The notes under the pieces were generated by a model. That model saw nothing but the letters and a program-made list of their open reading frames with translations, was not told the origin of the DNA and ran no database searches. Both the position numbers and the translations under genes were made by a program. 64,000 nt of DNA from Pelomonas sp. Root1237 (GTDB lineage Bacteria; Pseudomonadota; Gammaproteobacteria; Burkholderiales; Burkholderiaceae_C), in the NCBI RefSeq assembly GCF_001425055.1, contig NZ_LMDK01000022.1:62001-126000 (forward strand), read 5' to 3'. Shown here one piece after another: positions 1,720 to 60,685 of the stretch; the stretch's first letter is position 1, and each line of letters starts with the position of its first letter.

Positions 1720-2384
1720 GCCGACCGCCTTCCGAAGATGAAGCGCGGGCCGGCCCAGCTCAGCAGCTTGCGCGCTGCGATGGCCAGGGCCAGATAGGCC
1801 AGCGTCGCGATGATGAAAGCCTCGAAGGCGCGGAAGTTGCGGCTCTGGATGAGGTTGGCTGCATAACTCAGCTCCTCGGTGGAGATCTGCCCGCAGACGG
1901 CCGAGCCCAGCATGACGATGATGATCTGGCTCGTCAGCGCCGGCCACACGCGCTGCAGGGCCGGCGGCAGCACGACGCGCGTGAACACCTGCACGGGGCT
2001 GAGCGCCAGGCTCTGCGCCGCCTCCCACTGCCCACGCGGCGTGGCCTGGATACCGGCACGCAGGATCTCGGTGCCATAGGCGCCGAGGTTCAATGTCATC
2101 GCGATCAGCGACGCAGCCTCGGGCGACAGTTTCACGCCCGCGGCCGGCAGGCCGAAGAAGATGAAGAAGAGCTGCACGATGAAGGGCGTGTTGCGCAGCA
2201 GCTCGACGTAGGCACCGAGCAGGCGGCGCAGCCACACCGGGCCGCTGGCGCGCGACCAGGCGCCCAGCGTGGCGATGAGCAGGCCCAGCGGCGTCGCGAT
2301 GAGGGTGAGCCCCAGCGTCCATGCCAGGCCCTTGAGCAGCAGCGGCCATTCGGCCAGCACCGCGAGGAAATCGAAGCTGATCAT
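1716..2384 (-). CDS. ABC importer permease 1, amino acid type
   Basis: A 222-residue permease of the HisQ/GlnP group beginning MISFDFLAVL. The EAA loop reads EAAQSLALSPVQVFTRVVLP, and about five hydrophobic segments are present. It ends by overlapping the next permease start (ATGA), so the two membrane subunits are probably made in equal amounts. The gap to the upstream binding-protein gene is only 18 bp. It is the first permease of the four-component importer. Neighbouring genes do not identify the substrate beyond a small polar solute. Confidence 0.92.
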   Translation of the reverse strand: MISFDFLAVLAEWPLLLKGLAWTLGLTLIATPLGLLIATLGAWSRASGPVWLRRLLGAYVELLRNTPFIVQLFFIFFGLPAAGVKLSPEAASLIAMTLNLGAYGTEILRAGIQATPRGQWEAAQSLALSPVQVFTRVVLPPALQRVWPALTSQIIIVMLGSAVCGQISTEELSYAANLIQSRNFRAFEAFIIATLAYLALAIAARKLLSWAGPRFIFGRRSA

Positions 2385-35711: not shown

Positions 35712-35832
35712 GCCCCTCGCCCGCGGGTACGCGGTCGGTCCCCCGAGGGGACGGCGATGCTTGCCGGATCGACCGGCAAGCACATCGCCAACGGCGGGCC
35801 GGCTAGGGAGCGGCCCGGCGCTCGGCCTGCAA
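35712..35832 (+). repeat. Multi-hairpin intergenic element, copy A
   Basis: The element has an outer pair CCCCTCG...CGAGGGG, a central hairpin CTTGCCGG-N5-CCGGCAAG (35760-35780) inside GATG...CATC, and a third palindromic part GGGCCG...CGGCCC. It lies between the convergent PEP-CTERM and AEC transporter genes and could act as a terminator in both directions. Related copies are at 41425, 43641, 44257, 54123 and 58237. Confidence 0.8.
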
Positions 35833-41424: not shown

Positions 41425-41546
41425 GCCCCTCGTCCAAGGTGTACCTTGGCCGGTCCCCCTACGGGACGGCGATGCTTGCGGCGTTGAACCGCAAGCACAT
41501 CGCCAGCGCGGGCCGGCTTGGGAGCGGCCCGTCGCTCGGCCCGCAA
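41425..41546 (+). repeat. Multi-hairpin intergenic element, copy B
   Basis: It contains the central hairpin CTTGCGG-N7-CCGCAAG (41475-41495), the third part GGGCCGGCTTGGGAGCGGCC, and in its left arm an extra palindrome CCAAGGT-GT-ACCTTGG (41434-41449). It lies between the ligase-like gene and rep, in the same orientation as both. Confidence 0.8.
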
Positions 41547-43618: not shown

Positions 43619-43640
43619 CCCCCGCCGTAGTGCCTTTCTG

Positions 43641-43759
43641 CGGGGCGAGCGCTGGGCCGCTCCCGAGCCGGCCCGCGCTGGCGATGTGCTTGCGGCTCGA
43701 TGCCGCAAGCATCGCCGTCACCACGGGGGACCGGCCAAGGTACCCCTTGGACGAGGGGC
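43641..43759 (-). repeat. Multi-hairpin intergenic element, copy C (inverted)
   Basis: This copy is in the opposite orientation. The central hairpin CTTGCGGC-N6-GCCGCAAG is inside GATG...CATC (43683-43713), with CCAAGGTACCCCTTGG as the spacer palindrome, matching copy B. It lies 22 bp after rep, so rep is bracketed by an inverted pair of elements. Confidence 0.8.
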
Positions 43760-54150: not shown

Positions 54151-54262
54151 ACGCCGACAAGTCCGGTCGGTCCCCCGAGGGACGGCGATGCTTGCCGGCT
54201 CGACCGGCAAGCACATCGCCCTAGGCGGGCCGGCTTGGGAGCGGCCCGGCGCTCGGCCCGCA
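54123..54262 (+). repeat. Multi-hairpin intergenic element, copy E
   Basis: It starts inside the last codons of the methyltransferase gene. Central hairpin CTTGCCGG-N5-CCGGCAAG within GATG...CATC, then GGGCCGGCTTGGGAGCGGCC. It lies between convergent methyltransferase and deacetylase genes and ends 8 bp before the latter's stop. Confidence 0.8.
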
Positions 54263-56958: not shown

Positions 56959-58194
56959 TCAAAGGCGGCGCAGGATCAACGAAGTGTTGATGCCGCCGAA
57001 GGCGAAATTGTTCGTCATCGCGAACTCGGTCTGCAGCACGCGGCCGCCACTCAACACATAGTCGAGATCGCCGCAGCGCGGGTCGACGCGCTTGAGGTTG
57101 ATGGTGGGCGCGAACCAGTCGGCGTTCATCATCTCCAGCGTCATCCAGGCCTCCAGTGCACCGCAGGCGCCCAGGGTGTGGCCCATATAGCTCTTCAGCG
57201 ACGAGATCGCCACACCGGTGCCAAAGATGCTTTGCGTGCCCTGGCTCTCGGCCACGTCGCCCTGGTCGGTGCTGGTGCCGTGAGCGTTGACGTAGGGGAT
57301 GGCAGTGGCGGGCAGGCCGGCGTCTTCCAGCGCGAGCCGCATGGCCTGGGCCATGGTCGAGGACTGTGGCTGCGTGACGTGGGTGCCGTCGCAGTTGGTG
57401 CCGTAGCCGACGATCTCGCCCAGCATCTTGGCGCCGCGCGCCTTGGCATGCTCGTACTCCTCCAGCACGAAGGTGCAGGCGCCCTCGCCCAACACCAGGC
57501 CGTCGCGGTCGGCGTCGAAGGGGCGCGGCGTCAGGCGCGGCTGGTCGTTGTACTTGGTGCTGGTGGCAAACAGCGTGTCGAACACCGCCGCCTGCGTCGG
57601 GTCCAGTTCCTCGGCGCCGCCGGCCAGCATGGCGACCTGGCGGCCGCTCTGGATGGCCTCGTAGGCATAGCCCAGGCCCTGGCTGCCCGAGGTGCAGGCG
57701 CTGCTCGTCGTGATGATGCGGCCGGTGATGCCGAAGAACACCGCGATGTTGACGGTCGCGGTGTGCGACATCATCTTCACGTAGGTGTTGGCGTTGATGC
57801 CCTCGATGCTCTTGACCGTCATCATGCGGCCGAAGTCGCCGATGGCGCTGGGTGTGCCGCTGGAGCTGCCGAAGCTCACGCCCATGCGGCCGCTGGTCAG
57901 CAGCGGGTCGCCGATGAGGCCGGCCTGCTCCAGTGCCAGCTCGGCCGAGCGCGTGGCCATCTGCGCCACGCGGCCCATGCTGCGCATGGTCTTGCGGTTG
58001 TAGCGGTCGGCCGGCAGCTCGAAGGGTGCGCAGGGCACCCCGACCTGCGTGTTCAGGCCCTCGTAGGCGGCCCAGTCGGCCATGCGCTGGACCTTGTTGG
58101 TCTCGGCGCGCAGGCTGTCCATGACGGTTTCTGCGTCATGCCCCAGCGGCGACAACGCGCCGATGCCGGTGATGACGACTCTCTTGTTGCTCAC
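56959..58194 (-). CDS. apeR: Beta-ketoacyl-ACP synthase of the aryl polyene cluster
   Basis: A 411-residue thiolase-fold ketosynthase. Active-site residues: Cys167 in SSACTSGSQG, a His in NAHGTSTDQGD and a His in KSYMGHTLGACG, so it is catalytically complete. In aryl polyene systems the last KS of the O-P-Q-R gene order is ApeR, which matches its place here. It starts at a GTG (58194) that overlaps a short upstream ORF stop as GTGA. A repeat element and a relic of the apeQ 3' end separate it from apeQ. The symbol follows the E. coli/Xenorhabdus naming and rests on gene order plus family. Confidence 0.88.
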   Translation of the reverse strand: MSNKRVVITGIGALSPLGHDAETVMDSLRAETNKVQRMADWAAYEGLNTQVGVPCAPFELPADRYNRKTMRSMGRVAQMATRSAELALEQAGLIGDPLLTSGRMGVSFGSSSGTPSAIGDFGRMMTVKSIEGINANTYVKMMSHTATVNIAVFFGITGRIITTSSACTSGSQGLGYAYEAIQSGRQVAMLAGGAEELDPTQAAVFDTLFATSTKYNDQPRLTPRPFDADRDGLVLGEGACTFVLEEYEHAKARGAKMLGEIVGYGTNCDGTHVTQPQSSTMAQAMRLALEDAGLPATAIPYVNAHGTSTDQGDVAESQGTQSIFGTGVAISSLKSYMGHTLGACGALEAWMTLEMMNADWFAPTINLKRVDPRCGDLDYVLSGGRVLQTEFAMTNNFAFGGINTSLILRRL

Positions 58195-58232
58195 CCGACC
58201 ATCCCCCCATTCACAGAAATCACCTGATTCAT
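58191..58232 (-). pseudogene. Relic duplicate of the apeQ 3' end, mini-ORF coupled to apeR
   Basis: The minus strand encodes MNQVISVNGGMVG and a stop; the final QVISVNGGMVG is identical to the C-terminus of ApeQ but uses different codons. Its TGA overlaps the apeR GTG as GTGA. A GAGGGG ribosome-like site, supplied by the adjacent hairpin element, lies about 6 bp upstream of its ATG. It may keep apeR translationally coupled although apeQ is now 124 bp away. Confidence 0.65.
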
Positions 58233-58236
58233 GTCT

Positions 58237-58317
58237 GCCCCTCGTCCGCCGAGTACGCCGGCCGATCCCCCGAGGGGATGCGGGCCGGCTTGGGAGCGGC
58301 CCGGCGCTCGGCCCGCC
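58237..58317 (+). repeat. Multi-hairpin intergenic element, copy F (lacks central hairpin)
   Basis: The outer CCCCTCG...CGAGGGG arms and the GGGCCGGCTTGGGAGCGGCC part are present, but the GATGCTTGC hairpin is missing. It sits inside the aryl polyene operon, between the apeQ stop and the relic of the apeQ 3' end. Confidence 0.8.
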
Positions 58318-58318
58318 C

Positions 58319-59053
58319 TCATCCGACCATTCCTCCGTTGACCGAAATCACCTGACGCGTGATGTAGGCGGCGTCCTCGCTCATCAAGAAGGCCACCAGG
58401 GCCGCCACCTCCTCGGGCTGGCCGACGCGCTGCGCCGGGATCAACTTCAGCGCGTGCTCCAGCACTTCGGCGTCGATCATGTCCGTCTCGATGAGGCCCG
58501 GTGCCACGCAGTTGACCGTGATCTTGCGGCTGGCCAGCTCGACGGCCAGCGCCTTGCTAGCGCCGATGATGCCGGCCTTGGCGGCACTGTAGTTGACCTG
58601 CCCGCGGTTGCCCATCAGGCCCGAGACCGAGGCCAGCGTGACGATGCGGCCGGGCTTGCGGCGGCGCACCAGCGGCATGGTCAGCGGCTGCAGCACGTTG
58701 TAGAAGGCGTCGAGGTTGGTGTGGATGACGGCGTCCCAGTCCTCACCGGTCAACGCCGGGAAGGCGCCGTCGCGGGCAATGCCGGCATTGCAGACGACGC
58801 CGTAATAGCAGCCATGGGCCTCCACGTCGGCCTCCAGCGCGGCGGCAGTGGCGGCGCGGTCGGCGACGTCGAAGGCGAGCACGCGGGCCTGGCGGCCGAG
58901 TTCGCGCACAGCCTGGGCGACGGCCTCGGCTTCGTCGCGGCGGCTGCGGCAATGGATGACGACGTCGTAGCCGTCGCGCGCCAGCCGCAGCGCGATGGCG
59001 CGGCCGATGCCACGGCTGGAGCCCGTCACCAGCACGGTATGGGGAGTACTCAT
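58319..59053 (-). CDS. apeQ: 3-oxoacyl-ACP reductase of the aryl polyene cluster
   Basis: A 244-residue SDR of the FabG type. Motifs: TGSSRGIG (10-17), CNAGIARDGAF, VTLASVSG (catalytic Ser), NYSAAKAG (Tyr and Lys) and NCVAPGLIETDM. It reduces the keto group in each elongation round of the polyene. The ATG at 59053 overlaps the stop of the dehydratase gene as ATGA. Its C-terminus ISVNGGMVG is duplicated just downstream. The symbol follows aryl polyene naming by order and family. Confidence 0.9.
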   Translation of the reverse strand: MSTPHTVLVTGSSRGIGRAIALRLARDGYDVVIHCRSRRDEAEAVAQAVRELGRQARVLAFDVADRAATAAALEADVEAHGCYYGVVCNAGIARDGAFPALTGEDWDAVIHTNLDAFYNVLQPLTMPLVRRRKPGRIVTLASVSGLMGNRGQVNYSAAKAGIIGASKALAVELASRKITVNCVAPGLIETDMIDAEVLEHALKLIPAQRVGQPEEVAALVAFLMSEDAAYITRQVISVNGGMVG

Positions 59054-59523
59054 GGGGTCTGTCCGTTCAGGAAAGCCTCCGGGTCGTCGGGCCCGAAGAC
59101 ATTGAGGCTGGCGCGCGCCACCTCGGCGCCATCGATGCTGATGACGCACTCAAACTGGCCCAGGCCGTTGTCGGCCTGGAAGAGGCGTTGCACCTGCACG
59201 CGCAGCACGTCGCCGACGCGAAAGGCGGCACGATTGCACTGGTAGCGGCGCGTGCCGAGCAGGAAGCCGATGCGGGCGGCCCCGCCCTCATCGGCCTTGA
59301 TGTGACGTTGATAGCCGGCCCATGCAGCGGCCGCCTGGGCCATGTATTCGACGCCGGCCGATGCGCTGAGCTGGCCACCCTGCACCAACAGATGGTCGGC
59401 GCGCACGGTGGCCTCGGCCAGCAGCGACTCGGCATCGGCCTCGATGACGCGGTCGAGCCAGCTCATCGCGCCGCGGTGCGGCACGAGGTCGGCTATATCG
59501 AGGACAGCGAGGTCAGTCTTCAC
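59050..59523 (-). CDS. apeP: 3-hydroxyacyl-ACP dehydratase-like protein of the aryl polyene cluster
   Basis: A 157-residue hot-dog fold protein: DIADLVPHRGAMSWLDRVIEA (with His in PHRGAM, as in FabZ), ASAGVEYMAQAAAAWAGYQ on the central helix, and RVGDVLRVQVQRLF. It should remove water from the 3-hydroxyacyl intermediate. It starts at a GTG (59523) inside the end of the ketosynthase gene (11-bp overlap) and ends overlapping apeQ. No ATG gives a proper N-terminus; the frame upstream to 59682 is antisense shadow. Confidence 0.87.
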   Translation of the reverse strand: MKTDLAVLDIADLVPHRGAMSWLDRVIEADAESLLAEATVRADHLLVQGGQLSASAGVEYMAQAAAAWAGYQRHIKADEGGAARIGFLLGTRRYQCNRAAFRVGDVLRVQVQRLFQADNGLGQFECVISIDGAEVARASLNVFGPDDPEAFLNGQTP

Positions 59524-60685
59524 GGGTGAGCACCAGCGCAGCATTGCTGCCGCCGAAGGCAAATGAATTGGACAACACCGCGCGCGGGGCGGCGGCCAGG
59601 CGCTCGCCAGGCTGGACGAGACGGATGGCGGGCAAGGCGGCGTCGCGTTCGCCATCGAAATGGTGGCCGGGCAAGGCGCCATCGCCCAGCAGGGTCAACC
59701 AGCCGATGGCGGCCTCCAGCGCACCCGCGGCGCCCAGCGTGTGGCCGGTCAGCGGCTTGGTGGAACTGCAGGGGGTGTTCAGGCCGAAGACGCGCGCCAC
59801 GGCCTCGCTCTCCATCGCGTCGTTATGCGGCGTGGCCGTGCCGTGCAGGTTGAGGTAGCCGATGTCGGCAGGCGAGAGGCCCGCCATGTCCAGGGCCGCG
59901 CGCATCGCGGCCTCGGCACCGCGGCCGTTGGGCTCGGGCGCGGAGATGTGATGGGCGTCGCTGGTCTCGCCCCAGCCGGCCAGGCGGACGGCCGGGCCTT
60001 CGCCTCTTTCACGCGTCATCAGGAAAAGTGCGCCGGCCTCGCCGATGTTGATGCCGCAGCGCTGGGCGCTCATGGGATTGCAGCGCGCGTCGCTGACGGC
60101 CTCCAGTGCGGCAAAACCGGCGACGGTGAAGTCGCACAGGCTGTCGGCACCGCCGCAGACGACGGCATCCGCCATGCCGGCCTGCAGCAGCCGCGCCGCA
60201 CTGGCCAGGGCCTTGCTGCTGGACGAGCAGGCCGTGGAGATGACATAGGCGGGGCCCAAGGTGCCGAGCTCTTCGGCCAGCAGCGCAGCGCCGGAGCCGA
60301 TCTCCTGCTGGCGCACATCGTGCCAGACCGGCAGTTCGCCGTGCTCGCGGTGGTGGGCCCAGGCGGCTTCGCTCTCGCCGACGCCCGAGGTGCTGGTGCC
60401 CAGCACGATGGCCACGCGCAACGGGCCGAAGCGTTCGATGGAAGCATCCACCGCGGCGCGGATGGGTTGCAGCGCCGTCAGCAGCAACGCGTTGTTGCGG
60501 CTGCGTTGCGCGTTGGCGTCGGGCAGGGGCAGGGGCTGGCGCACACGGCCCAGGTGCAGGGTGCGGCCGCGCCAGGCCTCGGGCTCGACGCCACTGGGCG
60601 TGTTGGCCCACAGCGACGCGGCCAGCGTGGCGGCGTCATGGCCGGCGGCGCAGACGACGCCCAGGGCGTTCAAGTAGAAGGACAT
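59513..60685 (-). CDS. apeO: Beta-ketoacyl-ACP synthase of the aryl polyene cluster
   Basis: A 390-residue ketosynthase with Cys153 in STACSSSS, His in NLHGTATPHND and His in KPLTGHTLGAAG, so all three catalytic residues are present. By position (before dehydratase, reductase and second KS) it corresponds to ApeO, which in characterised systems works with the chain-length-type partner ApeC; that partner is not in this window. The ATG at 60685 overlaps the preceding lipoprotein gene as ATGA. The naming is by order and family. Confidence 0.87.
   Translation of the reverse strand: MSFYLNALGVVCAAGHDAATLAASLWANTPSGVEPEAWRGRTLHLGRVRQPLPLPDANAQRSRNNALLLTALQPIRAAVDASIERFGPLRVAIVLGTSTSGVGESEAAWAHHREHGELPVWHDVRQQEIGSGAALLAEELGTLGPAYVISTACSSSSKALASAARLLQAGMADAVVCGGADSLCDFTVAGFAALEAVSDARCNPMSAQRCGINIGEAGALFLMTRERGEGPAVRLAGWGETSDAHHISAPEPNGRGAEAAMRAALDMAGLSPADIGYLNLHGTATPHNDAMESEAVARVFGLNTPCSSTKPLTGHTLGAAGALEAAIGWLTLLGDGALPGHHFDGERDAALPAIRLVQPGERLAAAPRAVLSNSFAFGGSNAALVLTRED

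Follow-up and report, generated by a model that had tools for sequence, protein, structure and literature searches.

The genes apeQ and apeR follow each other on the minus strand of the window, i.e., the complete 64,000-nt stretch of DNA under analysis, which stems from a genome of the Roseateles/Pelomonas group (G000) that belongs to the same genus as G009 and G014 (Roseateles MAG). They are part of a fatty-acid-type operon, and the Ape designations were, apart from the match of the neighboring gene to an ApeP-like family, adopted from a first-pass annotation of the same DNA. Between both genes lies a three-hairpin repeat element, which is followed by a second version of the apeQ 3' end (Table 1).

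Table 1. Features at the apeQ-apeR junction (columns: feature, positions in the window, strand, evidence)
apeR, beta-ketoacyl-ACP synthase, GTG start overlapping the stop of the bridging frame	56959..58194	-	PF00109/PF02801; NF006587, 666 bits versus cut-off 470
Second copy of the 37-nt repeat, tail of the mini-ORF	58190..58226	-	
Bridging frame, 43 codons, ATG in the apeQ stop, across the element, ends over the apeR start	58191..58322	-	
GAGGGGC at the right end of the element, followed by AGACATGAAT, which contains the mini-ORF ATG (58232-58230)	58227..58243	-	
Three-hairpin repeat element, short type	58237..58317	-	R1 match, 96.3 bits; covariation
37-nt repeat, first copy, comprising the functional apeQ 3' end through TGAG	58318..58354	-	
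apeQ, FabG-type 3-oxoacyl-ACP reductase, 244 codons	58319..59053	-	PF13561/PF00106; TIGR01831, 401 bits versus cut-off 339
apeP-like neighbor of apeQ	59050-59682		match to ApeP-like family

The functional tail of apeQ, read from CAG to the stop at 58321-58319, returns after the element in a mini-ORF of 13 codons (58232-58191), where it is preceded by ATG AAT. Both tails have the codons CAG GTG ATT, ATG GTC, and TGA in common and differ in TCG/TCT, GTC/GTG, AAC/AAT, and three times GGA/GGG, i.e., in 6 of the 36 shared nucleotides, all of which are synonymous third positions. According to the alignment, the second tail begins 9 nt past the modelled element; the stop of the mini-ORF lies on the apeR GTG (58194-58192) in a GTGA overlap, and the GAGGGGC (58243-58237) stands at ribosome-site distance from the mini-ORF ATG (58232). 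The first-pass annotation had described the repetition of the apeQ tail with other codons, the GTGA transition into apeR, and the position of the GAGGGGC, and direct re-reading of the sequence showed that all of its statements on the letters were right. Two further ribosome-site-like motifs are located in the tails themselves, i.e., GGAGGA (58336-58331) in the first one for the frame starting at 58322 and GGGGGG (58208-58203) in the second one ahead of apeR, with the G run placed 8 nt before the GTG.

The ATG that overlaps the apeQ stop (58322) opens a frame without any stop across the element, which is in phase with the mini-ORF and comprises it as its last third. Stop and start codons overlap at both ends of this bridge (ATGA at 58322-58319 and GTGA at 58194-58191). 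The mini-ORF had previously been proposed as a tiny leader that couples apeR; it does exist, but the frame available for coupling is not limited to it and extends over 43 codons from the ATG in the apeQ stop. In G016, the equivalent ATG also opens a frame of 43 codons, here ending in an ATGA overlap. The element of G016 measures 80 nt compared with 81 nt in G000, and the number of codons is nevertheless the same because one base lost inside the element is balanced by one gained at its right end.

A family draw of 399 genomes contained 35 with an ApeQ match at an E value of 1e-70 or better, and the loci of 30 of them were retrieved. The junctions were compared in 119 locus rows with an apeQ match; 106 of them were distinct, and 104 of these had an apeR match behind. 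The gap does not exceed 20 nt in 98 of the 104 junctions, most of which overlap, and this comparison supports the earlier proposal that apeQ and apeR once overlapped directly. As that proposal also held, they are now pushed apart by the repeat plus a second tail, both of which are present between them. Of the six wider gaps, those of 26, 44, and 45 nt contain no element, one of 136 nt belongs to an Iodobacter MAG (L066), and those of G000 and G016, the only two of the 104 junctions with element and second tail, measure 124 nt each. Neither is present in the nearest apeR relatives of these two genomes. In the apeQ and apeR trees, G000 groups with G009 (support of 0.84 and 0.97, respectively) and G016 with G012 (0.56 and 0.89), G009 and G012 are devoid of the insert, and the ape element copies of G000 and G016 are not each other's nearest, observations that bear on the idea of one vertical insertion common to G000 and G016. 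A full second ketoreductase gene at this place, named by the first-pass annotation as incompatible with its reading, does not occur in intact form at the junctions viewed; ahead of apeR, L066 contains the first part of an apeR-like sequence together with a decayed end that resembles apeQ.

A family of three-hairpin repeats

The consensus of the element, derived from 31 of 32 extracted copies (the divergent second copy in L018 was left out), consists of three hairpins with a modelled length of 81 nt and starts with nGCGGGCC and ends with GAGGGGC. In a covariation set of 97 copies (93 distinct), standard pairs account for 96.8% of the pair cells versus 88.8% in shuffles, both partners vary in 16 of the 25 pairs, and the covariation score of 0.248 versus 0.097 was matched by none of 500 shuffles and far exceeded that of slid controls, with the proviso that the alignments were fitted to the model and that related copies inflate such counts. 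Rfam 15 gave no gathering match in the window and none at E values up to 1 on the elements in seven loci. Matches at an E value of 1e-10 or better were found in 19 of the 20 genomes of the genus and, in a sample of 150 genomes out of the larger family, in 35 genomes and 33 of 141 genera; copy numbers are lower bounds, with the best 150 candidates per genome scored (the best 31 in the 150-genome family search). The window itself harbors further matches to the element model at 41425-41545, 43639-43759, 35712-35790, and 54218-54262, two of which represent a long type (about 121 nt) that has one additional hairpin, and a tandem array of five matches spaced 90 bp apart is located at G084:C198:144240-144680.

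REP sequences of the GTAG and CGTC families are likewise dispersed palindromes near genes and, in the accessible part of the respective study, some GTAG REPs supply the stop codon to flanking frames (PMC3733652). In contrast to these palindromes of 20 to 40 bp with a GTAG or CGTC tag, the element comprises 81 nt and three hairpins, and its consensus has neither a GTAG nor a CGTC end. A link to REP-associated transposases did not emerge at three Y1_Tnp loci of the own genome, where no R1 match was better than an E value of 0.46. The element also differs from a MITE in its ends, as the left end GCGGGCC and the right end GAGGGGCNNACATGA are not inverted repeats (consensus, judged by eye).

Position of the repeats in gene overlaps

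The Roseateles set comprised 97 matches, i.e., 95 distinct copies after two identical ones had been dropped. An ATG exactly 4 nt past the modelled element opens at least 80 codons in 58 of them, and some start codon within 13 nt does so in 72, the latter versus 521 of 1820 and 420 of 1840 control positions. On the other side, an open ATG is present within 33 nt upstream of the element in 74 of the 95 copies versus 1239 of 3760 control positions. Frames that begin at an ATG within 45 nt upstream end no later than 20 nt after the element in 55 copies, at 21 to 60 nt in 4, and at 61 to 150 nt in 2, and run more than 150 nt beyond it in 14; the remaining 20 copies have no such frame. In some copies, among them L152 and L154 in G000 and L036 in G007, the frame continues into the following gene and extends its N-terminus; in L152, this extension stands in front of FTLLEVV, a sequence that we take to be a prepilin-like motif. 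A lack of stop codons was dropped as a sign of translation because it is not strand specific; 64 of the 95 copies have no stop on the sense strand, and on the antisense strand this number rises to 76.

Altogether, 47 of the 95 copies lie between two NTGA overlaps, one with the stop of the upstream gene and one with the start of the downstream gene. The spacing of these overlaps is 2 modulo 3, as required for a bridging frame, in 40 of the 47 copies (86 to 116, in increments of three) and at 28 of 32 distinct sites (majority per site; binomial, 3e-10). The seven misfits include the ape locus, which was counted with its 90 nt to the ATGA of the element; the 128 nt to the true apeR start fit. A further 53 copies, taken as a second set from genera of the family outside Roseateles, are a nonrandom selection of best-scoring rows picked by hand, 10 program-chosen loci, and L121; they include 23 double-overlap sites, all distinct, of which 22 have a spacing of 2 modulo 3. 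L121 itself, located in another genus (G129), carries the same element at the apeP/apeQ junction (2228-2308, minus strand) between two ATGA overlaps 110 nt apart. Among 21 weaker matches of the own genome, 17 of the long type (120 to 123 nt) and 4 of 79 to 82 nt, the ATG occurs once at the 4-nt place and an open ATG upstream nine times.

Empty sites were identified as well. At one junction, compared in 19 genomes, the element is present in 3, a direct ATGA overlap in 14, and another repeat in 2, and sites with the element exceed the direct overlaps by 89 bp; at another junction, the element occurs in G000 alone, and the alignment with G008 again shows an excess of 89 bp. The inserts of 128 bp at the ape locus and 173 bp at a GspF-type gene are both 2 modulo 3. 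Filled sites have an ATGA on both sides versus a single one in empty sites, which corresponds to either a 4-nt duplication or an ATGA borne by the element.

Origin of the two gene ends

Direct duplications flank 4 of the 95 Roseateles copies, i.e., those at the ape locus in G000 and G016, at the GspF-type gene in G011, and, with the element in antisense orientation to the gene, at a DUF444-type gene in G018. In the second set, they flank 1 of the 53 copies, that at a QueC-type gene in G052, with the top score only tested against the mismatched-pair maximum of the Roseateles set. A general trait of all copies, once considered, is thus not indicated by these numbers. The local match scores from flank to flank range from 23 (ape in G000) to 64.5 in the four duplicated Roseateles copies, and the tail repeat is not due to chance because mismatched flank pairs reached a maximum of 19.5. 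In the four cases with the element in sense orientation, the bridging frame keeps its phase across the second tail, reaches the overlap with the following gene, and comprises 43 codons in G000 and G016, 58 in the GspF-type case, and 48 in the QueC-type case.

A comparison with G009 and G012, taken as nearest relatives from the apeQ and apeR trees, revealed over 36 nt that the mini-tail of G000 has 4 differences from G009 and its functional tail 7, and that the second tail of G016 has 2 differences from G012 and its functional tail 5; the mini-tail of G000 also has 4 differences from five tails other than that of G009, and other tails are equally close to the mini-tails. For the DUF444-type gene of G018, the distance to G004 is 1/36 for the left-over and 8/36 for the functional start, and the functional tail of the QueC-type gene in G052 resembles G032 and its second tail G026. 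The second tail of the GspF-type gene has the ending of 11 of the 14 orthologues but one changed residue, the distances of both copies to most orthologues differ by 1, and single ones of its changes are shared by G002 and G015. There is accordingly moderate evidence, from few sites and with the GspF-type case weak, that the tail after the element may be native and the one before it imported together with the element. Such an import does not account for the constant position of the right joint at the end of the element. Since the second tail looks native and the first one like a different allele, the synonymous differences may predate the insertion and need not date it, and the previous conclusion that the event is not recent loses its basis. 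A selected peptide, suggested by the fact that all six differences between the mini-tails of G000 and G016 are synonymous, was rejected as an explanation, because native gene ends account for this pattern without any peptide function.

Homology-facilitated illegitimate recombination, in which one end is joined by homology and the other one illegitimately (PMC3240628, accessible part), is in line with an imported gene end that was inserted, together with the element, ahead of the native end. Compared with this process as outlined there, plain illegitimate joining would not predict a joint at the right end of the element in five of five copies.

An origin by duplication in place, the history put forward in the first-pass annotation, or by a long target-site duplication, which would have generated two initially identical tails that later drifted, with the left-over kept for apeR coupling, appears improbable to us. 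It would agree with the tail copies abutting the element, at 0 to 24 nt on the left and with second copies that begin 9, 9, 11, 9, and 10 nt after the element in the five cases, and with the identical boundaries of the 37-nt repeat in G000 and G016. Yet the 6 and 4 differences of the ape pairs and the 7 of the DUF444-type pair are all synonymous versus 23 to 37% expected at random, which disfavors such a duplication because a free left-over should change residues. Drift is also at odds with the distribution in the DUF444-type pair, whose 7 changed nucleotides fall into 6 codons within the first 33 nt and are followed by 48 identical nucleotides, and with the QueC-type tails, which differ in residues typical of two relatives. 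The relic of a tandem second apeQ that was mostly deleted and left its end ahead of apeR is a far less probable source still; the decayed apeQ-like end and apeR-like start of L066 at the same junction recall such a situation, but chance deletions would not place the second tail 9 to 11 nt from the element in five of five copies, and, L066 aside, the junction sequences viewed showed no other piece of apeQ.

A selfish insertion without consequence, after which apeR would start alone at its G run and both the mini-ORF and the bridging frame would be irrelevant, is assigned a similarly small chance as the duplication in place. The G run 8 nt before the GTG and the nature of the element as a dispersed repeat are in line with it. 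The frame-keeping spacing, found at 28 of 32 sites in the Roseateles set and at 22 of 23 in the second set, argues against it, and so does the predicted fold of the stretch alone, in which bases of the element mask the whole apeR G run in G016 and most of it in G000. With the element present, the predicted unpaired fraction of this run, which is a prediction on GC-rich RNA, is 0.11 to 0.46 in G000 and 0 in G016, and the run is more covered than with the tail alone.

Proposed translation across the element

Building on the directly observed sequence, frame, repeat family, covariation, frame-keeping spacing, and empty sites, we regard it as fairly probable that the ape feature represents a three-hairpin repeat of about 85 bp in a stop/start overlap, with a bridging frame, a native second tail, and a coupled apeR. 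The ATG overlapping the apeQ stop would be the old apeR start, which now opens the 43-codon frame through the element, and the second tail would be the native apeQ end that keeps a ribosome-site-like G run and the GTGA overlap; the functional first tail most likely reached the locus jointly with the element, through recombination with DNA of a relative. Ribosomes that finish apeQ would restart on the bridging frame, unfold the hairpins, thereby open the apeR G run, and restart on apeR at the GTGA. Judged from the sequence, the bridge probably mediates a translational coupling of apeR; the mini-ORF could initiate alone at 58232, and apeR has a G run of its own.

More tentative, with chances that we place slightly below even, is the generalization to mobile structured repeats that are specialized for 4-nt overlaps, split one coupled junction into two by adding a ribosome site, a start, and a hairpin-rich bridge, and can carry gene ends with them and turn the native end into a leader. 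Overlapping genes are usually seen as places where an insertion breaks coupling. If the generalization is true, a repeat family with frame-keeping spacing in overlaps would illustrate the survival of small elements in operons and the way in which repeats can spread through densely overlapping operons and leave them intact. It would also provide numerous naturally occurring tests for termination-reinitiation over structured RNA and bring to light hundreds of short translated frames that had been overlooked, and the second-tail cases would illustrate how a gene end and a small repeat are transferred jointly from one species to another.

Termination-reinitiation at ATGA overlaps is well established in general, and 13 of 14 tested pairs were strictly coupled according to the accessible text of PMC6728339. 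The overlap of stop and start is shared with the pairs described there; at the ape locus, one overlap has become two, which are joined via the frame of a structured repeat. Short palindromic repeats with open frames that are tolerated in translated sequence are known, e.g., Rickettsia palindromic elements (RPE) and intragenic ERIC/RU elements (PMC10969869 and PMC2759123, in the portions available). As in RPE, an open frame through the repeat joins neighboring coding sequence, with 55 of the 95 Roseateles copies ending within 20 nt and 14 reading on. The known cases, as presented in these portions, are in-frame fusions inside genes, whereas the element lies between genes and has a separate bridging frame. 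A literature search, with most subscription papers outside its range, recognized no described repeats in stop/start overlaps with a frame-keeping bridge. Translated palindromic repeats are hence already known, and the overlap-lodged, frame-keeping bridge is a new variation.

A different repeat with CACAGAGGCACAGAG arms occurs at the same operon junctions in several genomes (L256, L264, and related GspF-type loci; L321 and L343).
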